From: Margaritispora aquatica
Taxonomy: Eukaryota > Ascomycota > Leotiomycetes > Helotiales > Discinellaceae
Reading direction: 5' to 3'
NCBI GenBank assembly: GCA_007644065.1
Contig: VJWN01000015.1
Coordinates: 1 to 39,458 of the forward strand
Length of the DNA stretch: 39,458 nucleotides
Made by a program: the position numbers and the translations under genes. Each line of letters opens with the position of its first letter. The stretch's first letter is position 1. The notes beneath the pieces are model-generated. The model saw only the letters and a program-made list of their open reading frames with translations, was not told where the DNA came from and did not search any database. Positions 3,890 to 39,458 of the stretch are shown here, one piece after another.

Positions 3890-6800
3890 ATGCGTTTCTC
3901 TTCCTTTGCTGTGGCGTGCCTTTCTGTGCCGTCATTTCTTGTTGCCGTCAATGCCCAGAAATGCGTAAGCTTACGGCAGTTCTATACACTATAATATGTC
4001 CTTTCTTTTAACAAGACACGCAGGTTGAAAACGAATGTTTCAGACGAGCCAACAACCCTCTATATATTGCTAGTATGGCGACTTTCTGTGCAACGTACAC
4101 CATGTCGACTACAAACGCAGCTGCTATCGCAATCCCGACATGGATAGGAAATGTATGTGACGGAGCACCATCTAGACTTAGTTCGGTGTGTTCCTGTCTT
4201 ATATCTACGACTGGTACTATTTCTTCAACAACCTCATCAACCAAGACCTCTTCTTCATCAATTACACCCTCTTCTTCATCAATTATAACCTCTTCTTCAT
4301 TAATTACACCCTCTTCTTCATTAATTATAACCTCTTCTTTATCAATTACACCCTCTTCTTTATCAATTACAGCCTCTTCTTCATCAATTACACCCTCTTC
4401 TTTATCAATTATAACCTCTTCTTCATCAATTATAACCTCTTCTTCATCAATCATAACCTCTTCTTCATCAATCATAACCTTTTCTTCATCAATCATAACC
4501 TCATCTTCGTCTTCAAGGAGTATAAGAACTTCGACTTCCATATTCTCGATAACTAAAACAACTACTTCGTCTATTTCCATATGTACACCGCTTGTTACTG
4601 CCGCACCTAAGTGTCCCAAAGATGATTGCTTCAATCAAATCAATAACCCCAAAATCAGCGCGATAGCTCTTAAGTTTTGCAGTATATATATTACCCCCAA
4701 AAAAACCAATCTTCCTGACATTCCATTATATCTGCCCGCTTGTTGGAGATTGCCGGTCAAAGTAAGTTTGGCATGTTCATGCCTTATATGGCATGCTTCT
4801 AGTAGGAGTTTTACTACTTCTACTAGCTCGAGTTCCAGATCTACTTTGAGGAGCTCAAGCGCTAAATCGACTACAATAGCTTTGAGTTCTATATCCACTT
4901 ATACTAGCTCGAGTTCCTTATCGACTTCAACGAGCTCAAGCGCTAAATTGACCTCAACAAGTTCTGGCACCCAGCCAGCGGCTAGAGATGATTTTTTAGT
5001 GTTTATCATCGAACCATCTGATTTGAATAAAGATATTGTCAAGAGACAAACATACAACACACCGGTCATTATTGGTGCCAATGGTGCAGAATCCTCTTGC
5101 AAATATACATACGCCTTTACAATCGTTGAAGGAAAACTACTGGATAATGGACTACCAATACCAATTGGTGTGAATGAAGGCGTTGCCAATGCCCTATTTC
5201 TAGGCACTAGCTCCCCAGGCACTATTCAAGGAACCGTCGCCGTAACCAGAGGCTATTTCCGCTGGATCAACGAGAAATTCACTGGTGGTGAAGCATTGTT
5301 TTGTGTCCAGTCGAATAAAGTCATAGCTGTGTTTAATGGTGTGTATCCATCGCTGTGCACTCCGATCAAGATATCAGCTAGGTTACAGAGTACGTAGAGT
5401 TTAACCAAAAACCTACTAAGGAAATCTCTAATTATAATTTTAGCATCAATATGCCCCGATGGAACTCATTTTACTACAATTCCCGGCTATCCGTCCAGTA
5501 ATACCGCCTCGACAACATTCCGCCCTGTAGCACTTACTCAAACACAAACAAACTCTACCCCGTCATCTACTGTTGGTAAATGCGCTGCGGATAGTGGTCC
5601 GGAACAAATGATTTCTGTTCTTCCAGCGCCAAATCCAAGTGTGGATCGATCTTCTTGGCTCAACTTGATTCCCTCTAAGTTTGCTACACTTTACTATGCT
5701 GAACCAGGACCTGGGACCCAGATTCTTTCACTCGAATATGCAATGGACTACCCACAGGTAACCTTGGAAGATTCAGCCGCCGTTACCTCTATTGAGTGTT
5801 CCTCCGGGTTGATGACGGTATCGGTTAGTACACAAGATGCCTACAATGCAATCGCTTCATGGCCGCAAACGAATTTGGTCATGATTACGAGAACGACAGG
5901 CTGCAATCCAAGTAATCAGAGAGGAGTGTATCTTGTCACGTCGTACACCTTGACTGGAGCCACAAGAACAATAACTCTTAGTGTGACACCGAAGGAGTGG
6001 AAGGAGGTGGCTGAGACGGTGGAAATCAAGTATGGACAGACCGCTTCTGGTACATCAAAGACTCCATACACCTCAACGTGTACAGCGTCATACTCAAATA
6101 CTGCAACTCCTTCTGCCAAACCATCATCGAACTCTAGCAGCATTGAGTATGCAAATCTCACTCCAGAGGAAAAGGCTATAGTAGCATTCTTAGTAACAAG
6201 GACGAAGTATGACGACAATGGAAACATTATCGGTGAAATGCCACTCGGTCCCGTTGTGGATATCACTGTTGAGACTCCAGATGTTTATGATCCTAATAAT
6301 ACTGAGCTGCAAAAGAAATTAGAAGACGAACTTCAGAAGCTTGGGTTGAGTTCGCCTGATAAATTGTCGAATCAAGCGACCAGAGGCATCGCTGGATATT
6401 GCGATGCTAGTGGATGGGTTCCTGCAACAAGGCGTCGCAGTTTCGATCTCGCTGCTCCTGGGTTTAGTCCTGCATACCTTCCACAACTATTTCGACGCGA
6501 CGATGAAGATAACCCAATCTTTTGGACGTACATGTGGGAAATAGGATGCAGTGATGCCATTGGAGTTATCTGGGAAGCTATAGGGCCAGCTGGCAAATTT
6601 GCTCAAGTTATCTGCGCATTGAAGGAAATCTTTGTAAGAATTCTGGCTTATTGTCAAACAAATTCCTCGACTCTCATATCTTCGTGGTAAAGAATCGAAA
6701 GTGCTAACAAGTGATCTAGGATACCGTAGAGAAAGCCTACAAGAATCGTGATGCCATCAAATGCTATTGGTACGGGTGCTATGTCATCATACCACCAACT

Positions 6801-8820
6801 ACAATCTGGGACTATAACTATAGCTGGAGTATCAATTTCAATGGCCTTAAAAATACTAAACTGTTCTCCGCAGGCCCTGAAAACTATGTTCGTTGCATTG
6901 ATTGTTTTATGTCCGTCTCCGAAGTCAGGTTTATTGGCAAAGTCAAAATTATACTCAAGTCATCCACTATCTTGGATGCCGAGCTTACAACAACTATGAC
7001 TTCGAAAGCAAATCTTCTCATGGACTTCAAATGGGTAGGTGCACTTAAATATAATTGGGATTATACTGTCTCAACCGGGACTTTCAGACCTGTAGATGTT
7101 CCAGGCGTTTTCACAGTTACGTAAGTGCTGAAAACACTGAAAACACCACTAAGGATCACTGCTAATAAAAAAAGACCGAGCATGATTTACAGCGTTGGAG
7201 TTGACGTCTCCACTGATGGCACAGTTGGTCTAATTACAGCTGGAGCTGCAGTAAGCTTGAATAAAGCTTCGTAAGAATCCTCAGATTGTTCAAACCACAA
7301 CATATGCTGATTCCAGTAGTGCCCACATAAATTTCAAAGATAAAACCGCAGATGCATTCTCTGGCTGGAATCCAGAGGTCACATATACCTACCCTTTCTT
7401 CACAACTAACTCCAAGGTTCATTTCGCGCCACGGATGAGATCTGCAATGACCATCACTGTGGTTATTTTTGGTGGTCGTTATGTTGAGCCAGTCACGTTC
7501 ACTGCTGAAACTGTGGTGGGATTTGATGCAGAGTACGCTGTAACTGGAAACGGCTGTCCGGTCGACACACAAAAGATGACATCTTATTCGAATGCAAAGA
7601 ACTCCCTCGTTTGGGGTTACGGCAAATCTCAAATGATTGGACCGGAAAAGAAAGTACTCGGACAACCAGCATGTTATTCTGTTCCAAGTCTCAGGCCATC
7701 AAACGAAGAAATCGAGTCTTTGAAGGCAGTAGGTGCTGAATACTGCACTCAGTATATCAATTATCAACCGCCTACAGTTGTTTCATACGGCGTTGCAACG
7801 GTCACGACGCCAACGACTGTTCCTACTACTGTAACTACAACCATCACCTTTCGGTCAACCATCCACGTCATCACAACTACCACCGACGTCACAACAATGT
7901 CATTTTCCACGGTGGCACCTAGTGTGGTCCGATATGCAGCTGGATCTCAAACTATGCAAACTGAATACCTCAAGCGCGGTCTACCCCACCCTACATCTCT
8001 TATAACCATGTCTAAAGCGATCAAGAGAGATGCTCCAATACCGACATCACAACCAACTGTAACCGCACTGGGAAGGCGTGCTGTAGAACCTGCTCTCGTC
8101 TCCGATTGGCCTGCAAGTAAGAGACTTTTTGGCTGCTCACAGGTGGCGACAGGCACAATAACCAACATAATCATTACCTCCACTACAACATCCTATAGTG
8201 GAACAACCACTAGTACGGTTTGGAGCACCATTGACACGCAAGGTCTAGCCGTAACAAGCATAACTATCTACACCGTGCGAAGCCTAGCAGCAACATACGT
8301 CACGGATAACAATCTTCCGGTCACCACTACAACAGTTTTCACTAGTTGTCCATTGCAGACACAAATCCCAGGCGGCTGTTTCAACATCATAGGCCATGGT
8401 GCACCTCACATAGAGGGCAAGATACTCGGTCTAGGTCGAGGGATGATGGGCAACGCCTTTGGAAACTGGGCGTACGATATGCAGCCAAGCCCATTCTATC
8501 TCACATGCAAAGGGTTCTTGGTTTTTCTGCCTGATCATCAGACGTTGATTCCCAAGAGTCCATGGTCATTTGGCGGCCTAGGGATGCTCAACTTCGACTA
8601 CTCTTTCTCGAGCAATGGGGTTGTGTGTAAAAAGGATCCAGCGACCAAGTCTCTGCTGTGTGGAAATGGATGGTTGGTGTATTTGCCTACACCAGCGACT
8701 GACTCAACTGGCAACAGATATCAATGGGGGGCGCTGGATGCCGATTCTGTTTACCCGGATCCGATGATGGTCTTTATAAGTTTGACGTATCAGGAAATAC
8801 CTTGTCCTTGTCAGTTTTAA
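3890..8820 (+). CDS. Large secreted Ser/Thr-rich cell-surface protein with DUF7029- and DUF7223-like domains
   Basis: Proposed exons: 3890-3964, 4024-5389, 5444-6633, 6720-7120, 7193-7270, 7317-8820 (1537 codons plus stop); all phases agree. The ATG at 3890 was chosen because it gives a classical signal peptide (about 22 residues, ending VNA before QKC). Then come a Cys module ending CSCL (about 30-90), a Ser/Thr 7-mer repeat (100-183), a second copy of the Cys module (about 220-279), more Ser/Thr, a Kex2-like KR site (about 366), a DUF7908-like domain with FTGGEALFC (367-480), a DUF7029-like domain (about 573-678), a DUF7223-like beta-rich domain (about 900-1110), a Thr/Val-rich linker with further KR sites, and a C-terminal Cys-containing domain. 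No GPI signal or membrane anchor is visible, so it is probably released or wall-bound. Intron 5 (46 nt) could instead be a one-base frameshift. Function unknown; an adhesin or wall role is inference. Confidence 0.8.
4246..4497 (+). repeat. Coding minisatellite, 12 units of 21 bp
   Basis: Twelve back-to-back 21-bp units, consensus CTCTTCTTCATCAATTA followed by YAMC, fill exactly 252 bp and encode a seven-residue Ser-rich repeat alternating ITPSSSS and IITSSSS. Units differ at a few fixed positions, suggesting an older 42-bp two-unit period. Such repeats provide O-glycosylated stalks and change copy number readily between strains. Confidence 0.92.
4822..4983 (+). repeat. Two diverged 81-bp coding repeats
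   Basis: ACTAGCTCGAG recurs at 4822 and 4903, and GAGCTCAAGCGCTAAAT recurs at 4851 and 4932, both 81 bp apart. The unit is 27 codons and stays in frame. It encodes the second Ser/Thr-rich stalk of the secreted protein. Confidence 0.75.
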
Positions 8821-9814: not shown

Positions 9815-12800
9815 AGTCTTTTGACAGATTATACGATCTTGCGTGATTCAATCTTAGATATCTCTACTTTCAAGACGCTTCCACAGGCTTAAGTCGCAGA
9901 AGTCTTGGCTATCTTGAGATGGTGTACAGTCCATTGTTCGCGTATCCCGCTCATGGACTTCAGAATTACGAGAAGACTCTTATTGATTCCTCGACAACCA
10001 TGATTATTCGCGGTTATCTACCTTCTAAAGATGCTCTTTAAGTATATCAAAGAGATATCTGATAATTTGTTCTTATCGAAAGACTAGACTTAGTATACGC
10101 TTCCGTCCGATGACTTCCTCTACCAAAACTAGGCGTAGAGGACATCACAGACAATTCCTCCAGAACTATGATGATTCGTGTTGCTATAATCTATGGCAAT
10201 GTTTTCGATACTTCAGAGAAAGTGATCTACTCGTCTGGATGATGAAAAGATTCAAGATGTTCTTAGATTGATGCTTGATGCCTCACCCCGCCAAAACTAT
10301 GCTTAGAGACATCATATAAGATTTCTTAACAACCACTCATTTTCTTGACATCGAGTCCTCTTGAGAGATTTATGAGAGATAAAATAAGGTGTTTCGCCTT
10401 TTATTTGTAATGTGACAAGTCAGATTATAGTCATACTGACATATGATGCAAGATCATACCAGGCACTGCGGGGAGGACATCAAGGACAATTCCCCGACAA
10501 CTACAAAACTTCGTGATGACTCGTGTTTTTGAGTGACTTATAGAGTGCATCTGGCATGATTCGCCTTTTATTAAATATGCGAAAGATCAGGATGCGGTTA
10601 CTTTCGTGCACGATGTATCCTCCTCTTAAAACACAGTGGAAGGAACATTATAAAGGATTCCTCGACAACTACTATGTTTTTTTTTGGCAATCTGTGCTTG
10701 CTAGGTGTTTATTATATATAACTGCAAAGATCTCGCTTTTTATTGCAAAGAGAAAGTTGAGATTGATATTGGAATGAGAGAGGATGTCGTCTCTTACCAA
10801 AATTCGGTGGAAAGGACACCGTAAAGGATTCCTCGACGACTCTTATCTTTCGCGACAATATATATTCTCTGAATATTGATTATATATAACTGTAGTGATA
10901 CTGCATTTCTTTACAAAGCGAAAGATGATATTGAACTTAGGTTGAGATATGGTGTACCCTCCTGCTGAAATTTTGTGGAGGGGACATCATGTCTAGTTCC
11001 TCGAAAACCATTAGCTTTCGGGACAATCCACGTTTGCATAGTACTAACCGAGAATTGCTTCACATATCCTGCTCGTCATTCTGTCACGAAAGTTCAGATC
11101 AACCTTGCGTTGACCCATAGTGTACTCTCTCGCTAAAGTTTGGTGTGGAGGATATTATGAATGATTTCTTAATAACTACTTTGATTCGTGAAAACGTGGG
11201 ATATACATGTCTATAATGAATATACATCTAATGGTCTTCCTAATATTTTTCAGGTGAAAGTTCAATTTCCATATATAATGTCGTACTATACACTCCACCG
11301 CAAAAGTTAGGTGTGGGGGACATCACAAGTGATTCCTCCACAACTATAATGATTCGCGAAAGAACATATGGTCTAGGTATCAATCATATAGAAATACAAA
11401 GGTGCTGCTAATCTTTTTATGGTAAAACTTCAAGTTCTATATATAGGGTCGCACTATGTATCCCACCGCAAAAGCTTGGTGAAATGGACATCACAAGCGA
11501 TTCTTCAACAATTATACTAATTCGTGAAAGGAAATATGGTCTAGACATCAATAGAATGGCTTTATACAAGTTTTGCATTTTTTCCTCTAAGAAAACTTCG
11601 ATCTATAGGTATACTAACATATCGTATACTGTCCCTATAAAACATTAGCGCAAAGGACATCATAAACGATTCCTTATCAACCATACACATTCGCATCAAT
11701 TCCTCTTGCACAGATCTTTTATGTGTATATAGACAAGATTCTTGCTTATCTTTATAGCACGAAATTTTAAATTAGACACATGCCAACACCTCATATGTCA
11801 TCACACCAAGGTGGAGTCTGGGAATAATATGAGCGATTCCTCCACAACTATGATGGTTCGCATGGAGTACTTTGGTACGGGTTCTCTCCAAGCCTCTATA
11901 CGAGATTCCTACTAATCTTTATAACAAGAAAGTCCAAAGTTATAAAGTCGTTAATATCTCACGTGTCGTTGTAGCAAAGTTAGCTGTGTATACATCAAGC
12001 GATTTCTCCACAACAAACAAAATTCGTACTGATTCCTTTGGTCCAGATCTTGATTAAACGTGTCTTCGGAGATTCTACTTACCTTTTCCTTTTGAAAGTT
12101 CAATTTACATGAGCGACACTCCCTCATGTGACTTCACTTCTCATGACCGGATACGGGGCATACTGGGTACATACAGATGACTTCTATACAACATTATCTC
12201 AGATATATATCTTGAGCCTAAGGCCTCAAAAGCACTATATGAATACATTACCTCTGTTGGGCACTTGGGATAGAAGTTAGGTATACAAACCTGTAGCTTA
12301 GATAAGTTCATGTTATATAGGTCAGCTGACACCGTACCAAGTATGCGTGAAGGACATTTGAAATGATATGTTCACGACCATGGAATTGCACATCGTGATA
12401 CAGAAGGTACACAATAAATCAATATAGTTGAATCAATATGCCCCAATTTAATACACAGAAACCGAGGATAGCGGATATACCTGTGATCGGTACAGCCCCA
12501 TGTGATGTCATACCAGAACAAGATAGACAAATATATCAAACGATTCCTCAACAACCATGAACTTTCTCGTCAAGATAAGTTGGGTAAGGGCTCTTAAACT
12601 CTATCGGAAGCTATTGTGCTTCCGTAAATACAGGGAATCATAAGATCGCATATATACTTACGCCCCATATCCGCTTATATGACGCCGCAGCATCACAGGA
12701 CAAGAAAATATATCAGAGGATTCCTCGATAACCATGAACTTTCTCATTAAACTACACGAGATCAGGGCTTTTAGGGTCTATTCAAAACTATCACGCTCAC

Positions 12801-14300
12801 GAAAACAAAGGGAAACACAAGATCTCATATATACTTGTACTCCATATATGCTCACATGACACCGCACTAAAAATTGACAAGAGAATATATCGAATGATTC
12901 CTCAACAACCATGAAGTTTCTAATAAAGCTACGTAAGTTGAAGGCTTACAAATGGTATTAAAAACTATTATGATTATAAAAAGATAAGGAAACATTAGAT
13001 CGCTGGTGTAGTTGCGTTCCGTATAAACTCATACCACTCTACACCAAGAATAGACATAAAATATACCTCAAACGATTCCTCAACAACTATTAACTTTCTC
13101 ATCAAAATACTGAAGAGATAGACTCTTTAGCTACACTGGAAACTTTTGAGCTTATAAAAATATAAGGAAACATAATACTTGCGTTCCATTTTTACTTACA
13201 CGTCCCGAAACCAAAGATCAATGCAGAGAACATACTAGGCGATTCCTCGACAACCCTTGACTTTCTCGTCAAGCTACAAGAGCTAGAGACGCTTGAACAG
13301 AGTTGAAAACTTTGTTGCTTATATAAATCCAAGGAATCTTGACATCGCAAATGCATTGACGTTATATACACACTTGTAGAACATTGCACCTAAACGAAAC
13401 GCAAAAGACTTCTCAACCGATTTCTCAACAACCATGAACTTTCCCGATGGATCTAGACGTAGTTACTATTATGATATATGGATAAACAGATTGGCCTAGT
13501 TTAATCTCATGAAAAGACGAGGAAACGTTAATAATTGTTTTCTATATAGCCGTCATAGAGATTTCTAGACTAATATTATCTCGAACGATTCCCCGACAAC
13601 TATAAGCTTTCCCATCAAATCAAGCAGAGTGTGTGATTATAGGATATGGGTGGACAGATTTGCCTAATTTAATCCCAAAGAAAGACGAGGAAACGCTAAC
13701 AATTGTCTTCTATGTAGTCTTCACCGGGATATCTAGACCAACTTCATCTCGAACGATTTCTCATCAACTATGGACTTTCGTGTCAAACCAAGCAGAGGAT
13801 ATGATTAAAAGACATGAACAAACAGATTGGCTTAATTTAATTCCATGGAAAGATAAGGAAACATGAACATTGATCTTCTATATAGTATCCACCGAGATTA
13901 CTAGACCGAGGACATATCAAGTGATTCCTTTACAACAGTCAAGTTTCTTATTAAGCCAAGCCTAAAATAGGATTGTAAGATACAATTGAATAGATTGACC
14001 TCGTCTAATTCTATAGAAATATAAGAAAACATAAGCAATGATATCCGATGAAGCCTTCACCGGGAATTGTCGTCCAGCAATATCTCGAGTGGTTTCTAGA
14101 CAACCATTAAGTTTCGTATTAAGCTACGATTGTCAGGTATATATGACCTTTGGCTAATGCAGATCGTCTATCCTTTATACATCGAAAACGAAAACTACGC
14201 ATATGATTTATTCTATATGGCATCCAGCGAAGTCTCTATCTTGACAATATCTCGAGTCATTTCCCTATGGCCATCAAGTTCCACATCCAAAACATGAGTA
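9815..14300 (+). repeat. Array 1: about 27 degenerate tandem units with a conserved core, spaced 166-186 bp
   Basis: A core close to GATTCCTCgACAACCATGAA, followed by TTTCG or ATTCG, recurs in one orientation. The core G lies at 9815 (weak), 9985, 10153, 10320, 10488, 10656, 10827, 10995, 11163, 11331, 11499, 11668, 11835, 12001, 12179 (weak), 12365 (weak), 12542, 12719, 12896, 13074, 13241, 13419, 13587, 13755, 13923, 14091 and 14258. Spacing is 166-171 up to 12001, mostly 177-178 from 12365 to 13419, then 167-168. In the first half GGACATCA usually precedes the core by about 14 bases; in the second half this becomes AATATATC or TATCTCGAAC and the tail becomes TTTCTCRTCAA. The rest of each unit is poorly conserved. 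There is no long open frame on either strand and no RIP-like AT bias. I do not recognise the family. Confidence 0.93.
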
Positions 14301-17637: not shown

Positions 17638-18360
17638 TCTCAACCTTGCTCTTGAACACCTAATATTCATAGGTATAAGTAATGTCTACATTTTTGATTC
17701 ATAGTTTCAAACACGGATAAATCAACCAACTTTTTGTCTACACACTTGGCATCGGGTACTGAGAATATCCAACGAATGCGTATAACATAAGAGGACCACA
17801 AGATGTTTAAGTTGGAAGGTTAAAGAATTATCGTGAAGTGTTGGGTAGTAATATCCTGAGAGACATCCCGACGACATTAAGCGAGATTGCGATACACAGG
17901 GAAATGTGCATATCTACGGATTATACAAGTGATGATTGGCCTGGATTGACGTATACAGGATATTAGTGACCTAAATAGCGTTATCTTCTTCCGTTTGGTC
18001 TCAAAGGTATTAATATTCAAATTCGGGATTTTCACCACGGGCTCCATCCCCCATTCCGTCATTCATTTCCGAGTGGCGTTATGTTTTATTTTGACTTTGA
18101 GTTGGTATGGCATCGATAGTGAGCAGCTGTGTCAATTCCCAGACATTAGAATGGTCAGCGAGGGTCTTTTAAAGGTAGCGTATGCAACAAAAGGGTAAAA
18201 GCCAACTAAGAGACGATGACCTAGGCTTTGGGAATACTTGATGATGAATTCTGGTGGACTTCATGTCTGTATACTTTGCTGACCTACATGGCTTTTATGA
18301 CCATCCTTGAGTCAAGACGTCTCGTAACGACATGAAAGGATACTTGGCATGGAATTGGCG
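17638..18360. other. Gene-free region
   Basis: Only short overlapping frames on opposite strands (17877-18062 minus, 17995-18198 plus) are present, with no domain or splice logic. I see no structured element. Confidence 0.3.
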
Positions 18361-18381
18361 AACCCCTATGTTAGTGGGGTT
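18361..18381. repeat. Small perfect hairpin
   Basis: AACCCC and GGGGTT form a 6-bp stem around a 9-base loop. No poly-T tract follows and no gene ends here, so it is not called a terminator. Confidence 0.4.
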
Positions 18382-18571
18382 ATGTCATACCGAGAGCAAG
18401 GGTAGGTATTCACGAATACGAGTTGAAGTGGCAATATATTCACGAGGCCAATGTATATCACATCAATCAGGTTATCAGAGGACTTATCTTTAACATTTGG
18501 ATGTAAATACCCACATCATGAGAGTCTCAATTCAGTTGGCAACGAATATGATACCATCAGTGCTCATATGG

Positions 18572-19021
18572 GAGATTACTACTAAGAGGTGAGCCTCTAA
18601 GCTAATGAGTGAAGCGAAAGTCTAAAGGGTAAGGACGTGGGGCTTTGAGTGATAAAACACGAAAGGTGTGAATCACACCCTAGATATAAACACCTCCTGT
18701 GATAGAAGTAGAAGGGAATGTTTTCACCCTAGCGGTAATCAAAATCTAGGTATACTTTCACGAGATTACTGCGAGAGAAGCGAGCTGATGAGTGAAGCGA
18801 GAGTCTAAGTGATCGGGTGTGATGGACCTTGAATGTATAATGGGAAGAGGGATCTGTGGATGATTACTTTTATATTGGATACTGCTTGTGATAGGATATG
18901 AAGACGATCGCTAGCGAAGCTCAGTAATAGTTGGGTTTTGCGCCACAGTTTGGAAGGACATACGCTACAGCTGAGAGGGATACTAACATACATTATACTA
19001 AGCTAATGGACGAGGCGAAAG
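18572..19021 (+). repeat. Three spaced copies of a CTRATGAGTGAAGCGARAG motif
   Basis: GCTAATGAGTGAAGCGAAAG at 18601, GCTGATGAGTGAAGCGAGAG at 18784 and GCTAATGGACGAGGCGAAAG at 19002 are 183 and 218 bp apart. The first two are also preceded by GAGATTACT (18572 and 18762). Between them lies a perfect hairpin GGTGTG-AAT-CACACC at 18665-18679. This is either a second, shorter tandem family with a spacing similar to the arrays, or related small RNAs. The motif resembles a hammerhead ribozyme core, but complete stems I and III could not be drawn. Confidence 0.6.
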
Positions 19022-20514
19022 AAAAAATATGAAAACGTATCTCGGAGGCCTGCTAATGAAATACAGAGCAAGTTTATAATTTCTCTCATGAAGATGATTT
19101 GCATGGAGTGGAAAGTGAAAAGAATTGCCAACAGAAATCTGGGGATGATTGGAATCGAGAATTACATTTTGGTTTAATAATAAGATGGATGAGACAGAGT
19201 TCTGAAGCTTGACTTGTGTGTAAAGGACTGACATTAAATGTCGCCAAGTATTCCATCTAGGTTTGGTTAGAGACTAAACTTATACGAGCATGAAGTATTG
19301 GACTCTTTGACTCTGGAACTTGGAAGATGTGGCAAACCTAACAGATCTTAGCACGAGTAGCTGCTATCTGAAGTGTGTTGTCGATGGAGTTCAACTTCAA
19401 ATCAACTTAGAAGAAGGTCAAAGTCTGACATCCGCATTTACAACTATACGCTGGTTGGAGCATCATAGTAGCTCTCCTCGATCTCTACCAGACCCAGAGC
19501 CTAATTCTCATGCTCGTCCTAAACACCTCCCACCTTTTGCTCTATACCACTGTCGTCAAAACCAAGAGGCAAACCATACTTGAGATGAGATGGGTATCTG
19601 TCACACTCGCGTGTGGAATTATAATATTAGATGGTGGTGCCATTAGTAGGCGCTGCTTTCTCGCAGTCTTTGATCACAAAAAATGACCCACTTTTGGTTT
19701 CTTATCTAGGGCGAACTACATCTCCAAAATCACTTTGATTCATATCTCTTCTCAAGTTCTATATATCATTTCTGCGTTGTGAACAGCCAGTGGCATCTCT
19801 TCCATAATTATGTATAACCCTGGCCAAGTTCATGAAGACGGTGACAGGTAGGGTCCAAATAGTCCTTCACATCTCGTTGTGCAACTGACACACCTGCGCA
19901 GACCGAAGGCGTGGGAACATGTGCCGCTTCTGGTTTGGAACGACAGGAAGAGAGGGAGTGTGCTTCGCTGGACAGGGACATTGAGGATCCAAGTTATGTG
20001 ATAGATATAAGGCTAGCTTGTAGGCACTGCCCGTGTTAAAAAATATATGTGACATACTTCACACTTTTAGCTTGCGAGATATGAGGATCACGAAAGGAAA
20101 TGCGATGAAGGGCCATCGGGAATCTGGAGAAGTTGGGGAGTAGCCGTGCTGTTGACATTCCGTGATAAGTTATGTATGACTCGAGAAACGTCGCAGTCAT
20201 GCATTAAATTTATGTCCTGATTGACGTTAGGTGGAGTATAACTTGCAGACAAGGTGTGGTATTTATTGATGAAGCTTGTCGGGGAACAAGGGAATGAATC
20301 ATTGATACGACTTTTGTAGTCGACAACATGTAGAGAAAGAAATTTGCACAACTTCCAAATTCTAAGCAGAGAAGACGACATTGATACGATCATTCCAAAG
20401 AACCTAAACGACACTTGGGATGCAATGAAAATGATGCCCTAGATAGCTCAAGGCACTAAATGGCATTACAGATTGGCTAGAAATCCAAGTCGTGCACTGA
20501 AGCAAGGTCACGAA
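19022..20514. other. Mostly gene-free; minus-strand frames may be decayed coding sequence
   Basis: Short frames here are almost all on the minus strand (18998-19234, 19867-20055, 20088-20414). The last, 108 codons, has protein-like composition (for example LSASYTPPNVNQDINL) but no start, domain or intact neighbour. A decayed leftward gene continuing from 20708 is possible. One plus frame (19320-19583) is not supported. Confidence 0.3.
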
Positions 20515-24007: not shown

Positions 24008-24676
24008 TCACGTGTTTTGCTGCAAAAGACGATTGTAGCGGGTGTCGACTTTCGTGTTTGGATGTTCAGACTCAGGATCTTCCACCAGATTTATAGGCCA
24101 CAACTCTCCCATATCTTGGAAGCCCTCTCTGCCATTCCTGATGCCTCGCCATCCTTCTGGTGAGCTCACTGAAATTCCAACAACAAACTTGGTGACATTC
24201 GGAAAATGTGTAAGGGCTTCAGTCAAATCCTCGCCAGCGCAACACAACGTAGCCTCATCTACGATAAGAGACTTTACAAGGCTCAGATCGGCACATTGTT
24301 GCCCAGCGTAATGAAGCAGTGAAGGACAGTCAATGTAGAGGCTGTCGATGTGGGGGTTGAACCAAATCCGTGAAGGTGCATTGGGGTATGGTCCAATACC
24401 ACCAAATGAGAGTACGTACTCGCGCATGGTCTGTTTTCTAGACTCCCTGCACACATATAGGGCCGTTGGGGGTGCAGTCGTACTGTGAAAGCCGTGAACT
24501 TCTGGATGATCGATTGCGTATTGGCGGGCTCGGTGGTTTCGCATGACCCAATTTGCATTCGTCGCAGTTTTGTACCGTCTGATAGTAATGACTCTCGCTC
24601 CCGGTAAGGAAAATTTCCAGATCGTCAGTTGAATCTCCAGGGGTAGCTTGCCGAAGACTGTGAACGAATGCATCAT
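24008..24676 (-). CDS. 2EXR domain-containing protein
   Basis: The minus frame encodes 222 residues. The N-terminus HSFTVFGKLPLEIQLTIWKF is followed by SLPGARVI, then ALYVCRESRKQTMREY (about 75-90) and IWFNPHIDSLYIDC (about 102-116). This order, F..LP.EI...IW...LPG.RV / CRESR / FNP..D.LY, is the hallmark of the fungal 2EXR family, an F-box-like fold of unknown role. The length is at the short end for the family. The ATG at 24676 is preferred because it leads directly into the domain; an ATG at 24700 is in frame but lies inside a plausible intron (24740-24692). If that intron is spliced from the exon at 24741, the transcript enters this region in a different frame, so the two models compete. 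Confidence 0.82.
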   Translation of the reverse strand: MMHSFTVFGKLPLEIQLTIWKFSLPGARVITIRRYKTATNANWVMRNHRARQYAIDHPEVHGFHSTTAPPTALYVCRESRKQTMREYVLSFGGIGPYPNAPSRIWFNPHIDSLYIDCPSLLHYAGQQCADLSLVKSLIVDEATLCCAGEDLTEALTHFPNVTKFVVGISVSSPEGWRGIRNGREGFQDMGELWPINLVEDPESEHPNTKVDTRYNRLLQQNT

Positions 24677-24735
24677 GGCTTCGAAGATGAACTGATGCAT
24701 AGGTTAGATCGAATTTTGAAAATGTATATATTACA

Positions 24736-29126: not shown

Positions 29127-29218
29127 AAAAAAAACCAGACTCCGGATTTTCCCCGAGTCTGGATCTTTGTCTACCACAGATTTTCGAGACACGCATTCAA
29201 CCACTGGACCAAAGTCAC
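29127..29218 (-). pseudogene. tRNA-like sequence (degenerate serine-type tRNA or SINE head)
   Basis: Reading leftward, 7 bases are followed by TGGTCCAGTGG (29211-29201), a perfect A-box form. Then TGTCTCGAAAATCTG resembles a serine-type anticodon arm, a long variable region follows, and GGGGAAAATCC resembles the B box GGTTCRANTCC at 8 of 11 positions. An 8-base T run (29134-29127) follows at once, a Pol III terminator. The acceptor ends do not pair fully. Instead the 3' part folds as CCAGACTC / GAGTCTGG (29135-29162), an 8-bp stem with a further GG/CC pair. It is more likely a tRNA-derived pseudogene or SINE head than a working tRNA, but it could still be transcribed. Confidence 0.4.
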
Positions 29219-29321
29219 ATCCATTGGATTAAATACTCCCGGCCCTTTATGATGATATAATACCTTTAGTATAACTATATGGTCAGGAGGAGATCAGCCG
29301 GGTTGGAAAACGATATCAGGA

Positions 29322-32300
29322 GATTCTTAGCGAACCATAATGTTTCGTATGATAAAATTCATGGAAATCATGGGTAATACGTTGGCGAAGACAGACATGA
29401 AAAAGAATCTCAAGAAATGTTCAGCGTTTTGAAGTTTCTCTCTATACTGAGGTATGTGCCAGGAAATAACGTTGGACATATACCACGATTTCTACCCAAC
29501 CACGAGGATTCGTATTATAAGATCTTTAAATATAAGAGATGGGATGTCAGAGAGGAGGGAAAGTTCAGAAAGTTCAGAGGAATGTGTAGGGTTTGAAAGG
29601 TATTCTTATTGTCGTAGCGCTGCACCAAGTAATCACCACTGGGATATATTACGATTCCTTATCAACCATGAGGTTTCGCATTATGATTTCGTGGGATGGA
29701 GCGACTAACATCCTAGAGATAACGTGAGGATAAAAAATATGATGGGAATGCTTGGAAGTTGCGAGTTTTACTTGGAGGATGAGGTATATAGGAACTATGT
29801 CTGGAATACGTCTGATAATTCCTCGTCAACCATGAAGATTCGCATTATAAAATTGATGGGTATCAAAGTTGGAATACTGGAAAAAAGAGAAAGGAAAGAA
29901 AATCCCAAGTAGTATTCAGATTTTGTGGAGTTTCCTTTGGTAGTAAATGATATGCTATATATATACGTAGATATGGATATTATGATTCCTTATCAACCAC
30001 AGACTTTCGTGCTCTAATATTAAAACTCTATGTAGATTTTATATCAGGAAATCCACAATCCAGAGGGGAGTAATGGAATGTGAAGCGTTGCTGAGTAATT
30101 TATATTGATGAAATAGAGTACAAAAGAGAAACTGCGTGATTCCTCACCAGTCATTAAGTTCTCCATCTTTTTCCTCTAGACTAAAATGAAAAAATCCGAT
30201 GATAAAAACGGATTGATGACGAGCTTAGCTGCATTGAATAGCGTAGGTGGTTTGTTTTGTATAGGCGAGATGACACAACTAGTGGAGCTATAGAAAGAGA
30301 GAGCGATTTCTCGCCAACCACGAAATTTCCCATTTCAAAATTGATAGTGTCACTGGGCAGGGCGTTTTAGAAAACATAAGAATAAAGATATCCAATGGAA
30401 TCTATAGCATTGTTAGGTTGGTGCTGGTAGATATTGTACCTCAACATAAAAGTAATCACTCAGGGCCAAGCATTAAAGGATATGGTTGTAGCTTTAATGG
30501 ATTGAATCGGTTTTGTATAAAGATGAAAATGAGATATGTGAGATGGCTAATAGGTATTATCCTAAAGGTCGAAAAGCTTTCATCTTGAAATATGCATTAC
30601 ACAACTGTTACACAACTTTTCACAACACAAATTCGTATTCTGGTATCCTTGATAATCCTAAACGAGAGAGTGAGGGTAAATAAGTACGAAATTTGTGTGT
30701 AGAAAATGTAAAGTTAGGTAATTATTTACAAGCTTACGAGGTAATGGATACCGATGCTAAACACAGGCGCATTTACAAAATGTCTCTGTCAAACGATGTA
30801 GTATGGCGGAAAAGGGATCGTGGGTGTCAGCCCTCGCCAATTCATATTGCGCAACTAAAGTTTCCCAGGGGTTTAAGATTAGGATTAATAGACAGTCATA
30901 TGGATTATACAAAGATAGGGTCTTGTTTTCGACTTGTCGTTGGATGATGTCTTGTTCAGGATTTGCGAAGTCGACCTCGCGCTTAGGAAATGTGATTCCT
31001 CATCAACCACGACTTTTCGCATTTTAAGGCTGAGGGAAATAATGCTTGGGACTATAAGTATAAAGAAGGATTAAAATCTCAAAAGAAAAGGGAAGGGTGG
31101 TTGGTTAGTACCAGGAAGGCTTTGCTGATTTATGCTTGTGTGGTGTCTTTTAACAGAACCCAGAACGTGGCAGAGCCGAGAAAGAAAACATCACCATTTC
31201 TCGCCAACCGTGAATATTCGTGTCTTGATATTAATAAATCATATTTAAAAAGGTTTTAACTCAAGAGGAAGGTAAAGATCTATTGGGAAAATAAAAGTGT
31301 TGCTGGTTGGCATTTATAATGATGCCTCTCAACAAAATTCCCGACGCGAAATGACTGAGCAAGATTTCAAGATTTTTCGCCAACTATAAATATCCGTGCC
31401 TTGAAACTGATAGATCAAGGCTAATATGGTTCTGATTGAAGGAAAGATAAGAATATCATGAGGAAATAAAAGTAGACTGATTGACATTTGTTATGTGGTG
31501 TCCCTCAATAGAATACAGAACGCGACAAGACTGATCAAGATCTCAGGATTTCTCGCTAACCATGGATAGTCACGCCTTGAGAGTAATAAGTAATGGCTAT
31601 TATAGAACTGACCACAGAAGAAAGTAAAAATAATATAGGGAAAGAAAAGCTTTGAGGAGTTTTATTATTGACGCATGTCGTAGCCAGATCATACGGAACG
31701 ACGATGTCAAGTTTGGACATTGAGATTCCTCGCCAACCACGAAATTTCTTGGTTTGAAACCAAAAGCACAAACCTGCCAAAGTTTGAAGTTTAGAGAAAG
31801 AAAAAAACATCGCAGGGAAAGTGAAGCGTTGTTGGGCTATTCAAGCTGTGTCGAAAGTCATACATCTTTGCAGGGGGGGACGGCTGGCATGTATTCTGTA
31901 AATCCTCACCAACCACAAAATTTCTCGTTTTGAAATCAAAAGTACGAGCCTTCCAAGGTTCGAAGTCCAGATAAAGAAAAAGATATTACAGGGAAAGTGA
32001 AGCGATGTTGGGCTATTTGAACTGTGCCGAAAGTCAGAGATCTCTGCGAGCAGGAAAGGCTGGCTTGCAATGTGTGATTCCTCGCCAACAATAAGTCTTC
32101 GTGCTTTATAGTTTATAATACAAGATATTGATGACATGAAGTTAAAAGAAAGTTGAAATTATGACTTAGAAAGAGAAGCGTTGTTGGACTAAGCAAACTA
32201 TGGTGGGGTTACGGATATTTACAGGCATAAAAGAGAGGATCGCAAGCTGTGATTCCTCAACAACCATGAATTTTCGTGCTTTATAATTGAAAGGGGCTGA

Positions 32301-33030
32301 ATTGGGCATATATATTTTAATGGAAATATAAAATATCAGATGGAAAATAAAGCGTTGTTGGGTTATTCTAACAATACCGAAAGTTATAGCAGGGACACAT
32401 AGGACTGGATTATATACAATACCTGGATTATAAACTATGATTTCTTAACAACTATAAACTTTCGTACTTTATGATTGAAAAGGTAAACGATTGGATATAT
32501 AAATTATAATAAAGATTAAAAAAATTATATGGAAAGAGAAGTATCATTGAGTTATTCTGACTGGACCGGAAGTTATGGCACAATTATAAAAAGGCTGGAT
32601 TATAAAATATAACTGGATCTTGACAGTGATTTCTCGACAACCATATCCCTCAGTGCTTTATAATTGAGAATCTTGAGTACTAGGAAGATAAATTATAAAG
32701 AAAGTTAAAAATATCAAATGGAAAGAGAAGTGCTGTTTAGTTATTGTGACGACACTGAAATTTATGACGCAAATTTCAGGGACAGGATTATAAAATATAA
32801 CCGGATCTTGATAGTGATTCCTCGACAACCATTAACTTTTGTGCTGTATGATTGAGAATCTTGAATACTGGGAAGATAAATTATAGGGAAAGTTAAAGAT
32901 ATTAGGTGGAAAGAGAAGCGCTGTCTGGGATTCTGATGTTCAAGTATGAGTATGTAAGCCTGAATTCTTATTCCGAAGCGATCACCACAATCAAAACTTA
33001 AACTCCATAGCGAACCGCGATCATCGAAAA
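29322..33030 (+). repeat. Array 2: about 22 degenerate tandem units with the same core, spaced mainly 164-189 bp
   Basis: Same orientation and same core as array 1, with the variants CTCGCCAACC and CTYATCAACC common and a tail like TTTCGTGCTTTATAATTGA. The core G lies at 29322, 29487, 29653, 29817, 29984, 30138, 30305, 30457 (weak), 30643 (weak), 30828, 30994, 31195, 31371, 31547, 31724, 31900, 32076, 32251, 32439, 32628, 32816 and 33002 (weak). Spacing is 164-167 in the first part, 175-177 from 31195 to 32251, and 188-189 from 32251 to 32816. A second conserved block, GGAAAGAGAAGCGTTGTTGG and variants, lies about 90-105 bases after the core in the later units. There are many stops in all frames and no RIP bias. 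Confidence 0.92.
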
Positions 33031-36784: not shown

Positions 36785-39458
36785 AATAGGGGGTAAATCA
36801 CGTAAGGAAGTAGTAGGTAAAATAGATAGGATTAAAGAGTCTAAAGAGTATCTACTATAGTAGAGAGCTTTATATATATAGATAAATTAGTACTTTATAA
36901 GGAATACTCTTATATTATAAAGAATATAGTAAGATTAAGAAGAGAATTAAAATAACTAAATATTATATATAAAAGTACGTAACCTTTAACTAATATACTT
37001 CTCTAGTCTAAAAGTAGTAAAAGATAACTAATAAAATATAAAAAAAATATACGAAGAAGTATATCTACTAATTATAAGCTTAGAAATCTTTAAAAAATAT
37101 AAAAAATTCTATATAACGAATTTAAAATTAAAATATATTAAATTATTAAGAGTTTTCGTTATAAGCTTTTACGAGTTTTTTAACGTTAACTATTTTTAAA
37201 TATTTAAGAAACCTAGTATAATTCTATACTAAAAGTATTTTAGTAAATCTATTAGCTAGTATATTATTAGTCTTTCTTTACTATAAGTCGAAGTTACCTT
37301 TACTTAGTTCTTATCTTAACTAGTAATTATAAATATTAATATACTTAAGTTTCGTAATAAGCTTTAGTGTTTTTTCTAGAAAAAGCTATATCGTTTACTT
37401 ATTATTATATAGAACTAGTAGTTTTTACTAGAGTTCTAGCCTAATATTATCTAAGAACCTTAACTATTATAGTAACTATAAGATAAGATATAATATCGAT
37501 ATTAGCTTAACCTTTATAGTTAACGTACTTACTAAGTTTTATTTAACTATTTATTAGTTAATAGTATTATAAAAGAACTTAATAAGCTTTCTTTTAGTAC
37601 TCTTCCGATTAGAGTAATCTACGAATAAAGTATCTAATAATAATTTAAAAAGGTAAGTATTCTTATTATCGTTAGTAACGTTAAGTTCTAGTATAAAGAA
37701 CTTTATACTTAGTATATAGTTAATAATATATAACGTTATATCTATATATTCTTTAAATAGATTTTATAAAAATAATATAAGTTTTTATATAATATATATA
37801 AGATTAGGTTAGTAGTAGTTTATAAAGTAAGTTATTAAATCTATTTTATACTAATAGTTATATACCTAGAATCTAGTTATAGTACTTTAGTATAGTATTA
37901 ATTTCTTTATAGTAAATAACGTTTTATTATATTTTAATATAAATATAACCTTAAAATTTATAATAACCTTATTAATATATATATTTTAATATAACTAGAT
38001 TTTATATTAATCTCTATCTTTTAACACTTATATACCTAGAAACTACTTAAGATTATTAAGATTATATATCTTAAAGATATTTATAATAGTATTTCTAAAT
38101 ATAATATAGTATTTTTTATTAAATAAATAGTATAAAATTACTATATTATCGATGTAAAAGAATACAATAAGATACTTACTAATAAATAAATATATATACT
38201 TTAGTATAAACTTGAAACCTAGCTTTTTTATCTCTTTATATAGTATCTTAAACTATAGTAATAGTAATTTTAGAAATCTATATAGTACTTTATTAAGTAA
38301 TAATTTAAATTCCTTTATTATTCTTTTTTTATTTATAAAACCTTTAGTATATAAGATATAGATAGTCTTATTAATAAATATATTTCTAAATATATTAATA
38401 ACGTTTAGTTATTTAATATTAAGGTTAAAAAATATAGTAATTACTATAAGGTATCTAAATACTTTTATAAATAGTATAGTTATATAAATATCTTTATTAG
38501 TTTAGATATAAAGATCTTTTTTAATATATAAGTATACTTTAAGCTTCTTTAGGTACCTATTATTATTATACTTATATATAAAAACTTATATTATAAGGAA
38601 AGCTTTAATATTCTTTACTTTTTCTAACTTCTTAATTTTACTTTACGTATTAAAAGCCTTTAAGTCTATATATTCTTTCTTTATTACTATAAGAAAGCTT
38701 ATTGTATAAAGATACTAGTTTAATTCTTTTTAGTTTTATAGTATAAGTAGTAGATCTCTCTTATATATCTTTTATTAATTATATACTATAACGTTTACTA
38801 TTTCTATATAAAAAGTAACTAAGCTATTAAGTTAACTATAAATAGCTATAAAGATTATTTATTTTTATATACGTTTTCCTTAGATAATATTTCGTTTATT
38901 AACTACTTAAACGTCTATCTACTTAATTCTTAAGGGTAGTATTAGATTTTTTATAGATAAATTAGATCTTTTATTCTACTATATTTAATTATACGTTTTT
39001 ATATTTTATAGATTATTCTATAAACGTTATAGTTAATTATTTAATATATTTAAGTATAGATTTTTGATTTTATTATATTCTTAAAAGAGCCTATAAGTAA
39101 GTTTTTTTACTTTAGACGTTTTTTTAAATATTATTAATCCTTTAGTTTTTTACTTTAATTCTAAGTTAACTTTTTTAATTATTAGTATATTATTACTAAA
39201 GATATTAACTTATATTATATTATTTATTTCCTTTAATAAGAGTTTATAATCTTTAAGATCCTTAACCTTTAATTAACTAATCTTTAGTTCTATTATTTTA
39301 ATAATATCTAGAACTTAAATAAGAATTACTTTAAAGACTTTATTTTTCTTTTATCTTTATATTATATTAAATATTATATCTTTTATTAATATACTTTTCG
39401 TTTCTTTAGTAACTAGATATAAAAGATATTAATAGAATTATAGTTTACTAGATAGCCT
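36785..39458 (-). mobile_element. RIP-mutated Ty1/copia retrotransposon, partial
   Basis: Read leftward, the polyprotein 3' half is recognisable through many stops. At about 38300-38160 comes an equivalent of the copia stretch LxKALYGLKQSPxxW...LGF...VFF. YIDNI at 38156-38142 stands for the reverse-transcriptase catalytic Y(V/I)DDI. FLGI lies near 38045-38031, followed by KDRD and YINKV in the normal order. NILANRFTKIL near 37270-37235 corresponds to the ADxLTKxLP motif at the end of the RNase H region. One catalytic Asp is changed to Asn (GAT to AAT) and TGG codons are TAG, as expected for G-to-A on the read strand from RIP. The 5' half lies beyond the window. The element is dead. Confidence 0.88.

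Follow-up and report, generated by a model that had tools for sequence, protein, structure and literature searches.

A short motif recurs approximately every 156–189 letters in six arrays at two genomic loci (69 units in total; periods mostly near 156, 164–169, 175–182, or 188), a natural example of spacing that seems to have outlived sequence. The motif has stayed regular while the DNA between its copies has drifted far, so both the motif and its distances are apparently read; the pattern suggests that something, probably a chromatin-arranging protein, does the reading. Selection on the core of the motif and on its spacing is well supported. The explanation that we favor, and to which we give about an even chance, is that an old nucleosome-length satellite was duplicated locally and diverged, and that purifying selection has since maintained it as a regular array of putative DNA-protein binding sites.

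The window analyzed here covers 39,458 bases at the start of contig C7, which is 1.16 Mb long, in a genome of 42.36 Mb assembled into 49 contigs. CCCTAA telomere repeats mark its start, and array 1 sits 10–14 kb from the telomere. A degenerate core pattern (≤3 mismatches) matched the window 34 times versus 0.26 expected from shuffles, always on the + strand. A weight matrix identified 41 window cores scoring ≥11, likewise all on the + strand, the best opposite-strand score being 7.5. Four additional window cores were added from spacing (12365, 14258, and 29161, scoring 5.8–7.8, and 12179, scoring -16.8); these are low-scoring and are therefore credible by place rather than by score. Whole-genome pattern searches returned 48, 153, 13, and 5 matches versus 19, 77, 4, and 0 when the pattern was reversed, and in the stricter searches 11 of 13 and 4 of 5 matches fall in the two loci, on contigs C7 and C25. 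Locations in the 153-match search rest on the approximately 100 matches listed, and weaker arrays elsewhere are possible. Seven isolated matches, searched together with ~0.6–1.1 kb on each side using the weight matrix (score >5), yielded at most one core each; one of these stretches (L043, contig C48) contains a single 158-bp repeat pair. The exact core pattern had no match in viral contigs. A core scoring 29.4 at C25:37592 (- strand), with a weak core 169 bp upstream, lies outside the unit counts.

The surroundings include, at 4075–8820, subtelomeric genes encoding DUF7908 and DUF7029 domains, where the frame at 4075–5397 contains a 21-bp tandem repeat (4246–4508, 12.5 copies), and a 2EXR-family frame on the - strand (24008–24700; Pfam E 2e-18), for which a protein search with 96 candidates gave none at E 0.001. 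The RPA2 (RNA polymerase I subunit) frame of 999 amino acids is 93% identical to that of Phialocephala subalpina, the nearest named protein; another match reaches 94%. The genome is accordingly that of a Helotiales-like ascomycete.

Orientation is uniform inside each array, and the units are thus tandem and head-to-tail. The features are as follows.

9985–10011, + strand: example core, with box 1 (GATTCCTC) at offset 0–7, CAAC at 10–13, and box 2 (WTTCG) at 21–25.
11253–11260, + strand: example box 3 (GGTGAAAG); its GAAA starts at +93 from core 11163.
9985–12028, + strand: array 1a, 13 cores with a period of 166–171 and mode 168 (weight matrix and intervals), at 9985, 10153, 10320, 10488, 10656, 10827, 10995, 11163, 11331, 11499, 11668, 11835, and 12001.
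12029–12541, + strand: decayed stretch of array 1, with a weak core at 12365 (5.8) and another almost erased at 12179 (-16.8), the best-scoring positions in the gap.
12542–14285, + strand: array 1b, period 177/178 and then 167/168, with one 167-bp unit amid 178-bp units; cores at 12542, 12719, 12896, 13074, 13241, 13419, 13587, 13755, 13923, 14091, and, weak, 14258.
29161–30331, + strand: array 2a, cores at 29161 (weak), 29322, 29487, 29653, 29817, 29984, 30138, and 30305, 154–167 bp apart.
30332–30993, + strand: interruption of array 2, with cores 30305 and 30994 lying 689 bp apart; in three places examined with the weight matrix, the score nowhere exceeded -8.
30994–32842, + strand: array 2b, intervals of 201 once, then 175–177, then 188–189 (weight matrix; Tandem Repeats Finder periods 176 and 188); cores at 30994, 31195, 31371, 31547, 31724, 31900, 32076, 32251, 32439, 32628, and 32816.
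C7 48809–50413: array 3, intervals of 155–157 and one gap of 667.
C25 28844–29511, - strand: array C25a, intervals of 158–175; the first core is weak.
C25 30231–31224, + strand: array C25b, intervals of 164–168, cores placed by eye on the sequence.
C25 38777–39315, - strand: array C25c, intervals of 176–182 (176, 180, and 182), cores likewise placed by eye.

Unit lengths are nucleosomal: 59 intervals span 154–201 bp with a mode of 168, a set that excludes the 689 and 667 gaps and the two intervals on either side of 12179, 178 and 186. Array 1 contains 26 core positions between 9985 and 14258, spaced mostly 166–169 or 177–178 bp apart. The original prediction that core spacing was held while the units diverged is borne out by the core matches, by the interval lists, and by the standard deviation (SD) of 1.15 in array 1a. 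Its list of intervals between 9985 and 12001 had the right values and one 168 too many, 13 where the 13 cores leave 12 (168, 167, 168, 168, 171, 168, 168, 168, 168, 169, 167, and 166), and its second list (177, 177, 177, 178, 167, 178, 168, 168, 168, 168, and 167) matches exactly when 12365 and 14258 are counted.

The core is bipartite. Column conservation over 66 units and a group-balanced test place its two TTC half-sites 20 bp apart; C25b and C25c are without the CAAC part and keep the 20-bp separation. A further element that the earlier work overlooked, box 3, is an inverted GGAAA/CGAAA approximately 92 bp past the start of the core, whatever the period. Of 57 units from six blocks of four arrays, 48 (84%) have a GAAW that begins between +91 and +94 (array 1a, 10/13; 1b, 11/12; 2a, 5/8; 2b, 11/11; array 3, 7/8; C25a, 4/5). 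Box 3 was chosen after looking at the data; elsewhere, 26 windows of equal width average 3.2 occurrences with a maximum of 11, and each of the six blocks peaks at +91 to +94. Under a null that shifts whole groups and so retains the relatedness of units, the columns above the 99.5% level are those of the core, box 3 (+92 to +97), and isolated positions at -11, +55, +78, and +101. Box 3 at +93 is absent from C25b (0/7) and C25c (0/4). C25b (C25:30231–31250) has an element of its own, (A)GGAAAACC, ~112 bp past the core, with GAAW near +113 in 4 of 7 units. A candidate hairpin between box 2 and box 3 was unconvincing, with z values of 2.1, -0.4, 1.6, -0.7, and 1.4 versus shuffled partners at offsets of -2 to +2.

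The constraint on spacing is more specific than had been proposed: in the blocks that carry box 3 the core-to-box-3 distance is ~92–93 bp, and the distance from box 3 to the next core is nearly fixed only within sub-arrays. In the 44 units with GAAW in a 14-bp search window, the first distance averages 92.7 with an SD of at least 0.78, a lower bound because it was measured inside that search window; the second averages 77.5 with an SD of 9.65. The latter is near-constant within sub-arrays (62–65, 71–77, 82–85, 95–96, and once 110) and changes between them in steps of ~9–14 bp. Taken as one value per run, these distances cluster at a period of 10.5 bp (n = 15, p = 0.0008), both the definition of a run and the period having been fixed after seeing the data. 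The periods of C25c (176, 180, and 182) lie off one-turn steps. Quantization of whole units by one turn was tried and rejected: at 10.5 bp, 24 runs gave p = 0.0066, and a scan over periods of 8 to 14 gave p = 0.011, but C25c breaks the rule, and eight distinct length classes alone give only R = 0.33. The spacers showed no 10-bp WW periodicity.

Relationships among units point to growth by local duplication followed by divergence without much later homogenization, since the adjacent unit is the nearest relative in 31 of 39 units of both window arrays (the last unit being cut at 33000). The arrays, of 4–26 units each, are not the long homogenized arrays of a satellite; overall identity of neighbors is 54–78% in 37 pairs on C7. 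The original prediction that the units match poorly outside the core stands as far as divergence goes, and overstates it in that the 33 window pairs are 55–78% identical and spacers score >3 SD above shuffled sequence in 30 of the 37 C7 pairs (≤3 SD in 7). Within arrays, spacer identity of 0.38–0.44 corresponds to ~1.1–1.4 substitutions per site. Between arrays 1 and 2 it is approximately at chance, 0.25–0.32 versus 0.25–0.30 predicted by composition (0.26–0.30 at +28 to +58, expected 0.28; 0.26–0.32 at +59 to +89, expected 0.25–0.30; 0.25–0.28 at +98 to +128, expected 0.26–0.27). Other comparisons exceed chance: C25a with array 1b (0.48, 0.51), 1a with 1b (0.33, 0.38), 2a with 2b (0.38, 0.39), and 2b with array 3 (0.33, 0.41). 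Core identity between arrays 1 and 2 is 0.64–0.70, nearly equal to the 0.67–0.77 within their blocks, although core conservation partly reflects the choice of rows because units were found by their core. A core conserved between arrays, a box at constant offset, and DNA between them that compares approximately at chance are what would be expected of binding sites in a fixed geometry.

Alignment without gaps was obtained for 6 of the 37 C7 neighbor pairs (314 substitutions), including three successive pairs at 13419–14090 with ~205 substitutions along the path; the other 31 show 1–11 gaps, which may be real or aligner noise because divergence is too high to tell. We simulated unit lengths for the 12 intervals of array 1a at 0.5 substitutions per branch, with either mixed indel lengths or 1-bp indels only. 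Mixed indels at indel-to-substitution ratios of 0.03, 0.1, and 0.2 gave length SDs of 5.6, 10.8 (simulated median), and 15.6 (P ≤ 0.0007); the 11–16 bp at 0.1–0.2, set against 1.15 in array 1a, supports the earlier suggestion that spacing itself is under constraint. With 1-bp indels the lengths are unlikely at a ratio of 0.1 (P = 0.005). The alternative offered at the time, divergence almost purely by point mutation, is possible, given the six gap-free pairs, the ambiguous gaps in the other 31, and a fit to the lengths at a very low ratio of 0.01.

The rival that survives best is one that we consider possible but rather improbable: the arrays may be a dead, decaying satellite of nucleosome length, whose units look fixed in length only because few indels have occurred since duplication. 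Nearest relatives are adjacent in most units, as in passive decay, and some cores have already been lost or decayed (12029–12541 and 30332–30993), which also counts against the selection reading. Array 1a lengths fit drift at a ratio of 0.01 with mixed indels (P = 0.10) and at 0.01 and 0.03 with 1-bp indels (P = 0.95 and 0.28), and neutral simulation places box 3 at frequencies of 0.83, 0.57, and 0.23 at ratios of 0.01, 0.03, and 0.1 versus the 84% observed. Published fungal ratios are higher, however. Mutation accumulation in Neurospora is reported to have yielded 1077 single-nucleotide mutations alongside 134 insertions and 97 deletions (231 in all); homopolymers contained 88 of the 96 1-bp indels (PMC10234303). 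In Podospora populations 23 short indels are reported as fixed versus 125 substitutions (PMC6786475). Drift simulated at such ratios, which are those of other fungi, fails to give the fixed lengths of array 1a. A dead satellite also sits poorly with core identity that is almost as high between arrays 1 and 2 as within them while their spacers compare approximately at chance, and with a box 3 distance kept across six blocks.

The units could instead be tandem small transcription units, each producing a short non-coding RNA, with the core as upstream promoter element and the AT-rich stretch before box 3 as a TATA-like sequence. The asymmetric, strand-consistent units and the peak of WW dinucleotides just before box 3 (0.59 at +80 to +89) would suit such an arrangement, which we nevertheless regard as unlikely: conservation is lowest in the part of the unit that would be transcribed, no Rfam family reaches its gathering score in the window, and RNAalifold gives no consensus pairs in three unit alignments (A2, A3, and A4). 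Sub-threshold Rfam matches amount to one per window array (E 0.69 and 1.7) and two at 18300–19300. This last region contains near-identical 20-mers (ATGAGTGAAGCGARAGTCTA) 183 bp apart at 18605–18624 and 18788–18807, and by eye a third, diverged copy can be made out near 19000; we take the pair to resemble a hammerhead core, for which there is no Rfam match at 18300–19300.

RIP is a very improbable origin of the divergence. The AT-rich blocks at 150–900 and 36900–39458 are strongly RIP-like, with (CpA+TpG)/(ApC+GpT) of 0.04 and 0.03 and GC of 0.16 and 0.17, but the same index is 1.12 and 1.23 in arrays 1 and 2 and 1.18 in the gene region. The arrays thus display neither the CpA depletion nor the transition-only change of a RIP-mutated repeat. 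Transitions make up only 59% of substitutions in six pairs, a count that includes the pair 13923/14091, which is not gap-free, and ~65% when one misaligned pair is removed; RIP alone therefore did not produce the divergence. RIP-like blocks flanking arrays that are not RIP-like may show how tandem repeats persist in a repeat-mutating genome. A decayed repeat-protein gene or set of tandem exons, its reading frame keeping the spacing, is barely credible even though 168 and 177 are divisible by 3, since stops interrupt six of six frames over 56 units and leave no open reading frame, mismatches show no mod-3 bias (p = 0.16 in seven pairs, one misaligned), and intervals of 166, 167, 169, and 178 occur.

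For the binding-site array under purifying selection, we propose the following model. Local tandem duplication would have built the arrays, sequence identity would then have been lost, and purifying selection would have kept a regular array of sites. Each unit carries a bipartite core whose half-sites lie 20 bp (about two helical turns) apart; four of the six arrays add an inverted half-site ~92 bp from the start of the core. A sequence-specific factor may bind the core together with box 3, probably sitting on a single nucleosome or next to it, which could account for the fixed distance between the two elements. The DNA between box 3 and the following core would then be linker, changing mainly by about one helical turn. 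About 80 bp corresponds to roughly one turn of DNA around the nucleosome; unit length, the near-80-bp distance from core center to box 3, and the steps near a helical turn all point to nucleosomes, whereas the WW analysis of the spacers lends this no support. From sequence, we infer the factor, the nucleosome, and a role of the arrays in ordered chromatin. It is tempting to go further and regard the arrays as a chromatin ruler, in which one factor reads a three-part site (the bipartite core and box 3), the linker changes only by about one turn, and array geometry rather than sequence is inherited; this extension is speculative, and we think it doubtful. That the family is known from only two loci argues against a general chromatin role.

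The original prediction that no fungal element with such a design has been described overstates its novelty: outside fungi, satellites of nucleosome length are known that carry a protein-binding box. A literature search at the level of titles and abstracts, in which subscription journals were thinly covered, found no fungal satellite of such design. The essential bases of the CENP-B box are TTCGNNNNANNCGGG; allowing ≤1 mismatch, the window contains three matches versus 3.47 expected, none of them in the arrays. Primate alpha satellite is described as consisting of nucleosomal-length tandem units with this short protein-binding box (PMC8122249), and the arrays reported here resemble it in combining tandem repetition at nucleosomal length with a short, putative protein-binding box. 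They differ from it in comprising 4–26 strongly differing units, located close to a telomere and at one further locus, and in that four of six arrays have a third element whose distance is fixed. Nucleosome linkers in budding yeast are reported to be quantized at 10n+5 bp (PMC2522279); the length steps near one helical turn observed here, known from sequence alone and misfitted by C25c, offer a likeness that is suggestive only. The nucleosome-length satellites of animals and plants (PMC8122249) share with these arrays a unit length in the nucleosomal range. Whether that length is functional or a by-product is a long-standing question. Unlike those satellites, arrays 1 and 2 have spacers that compare approximately at chance while core, box 3, and the distance between them remain; if these three are indeed selected, the arrays would allow the question to be addressed directly in a small genome.
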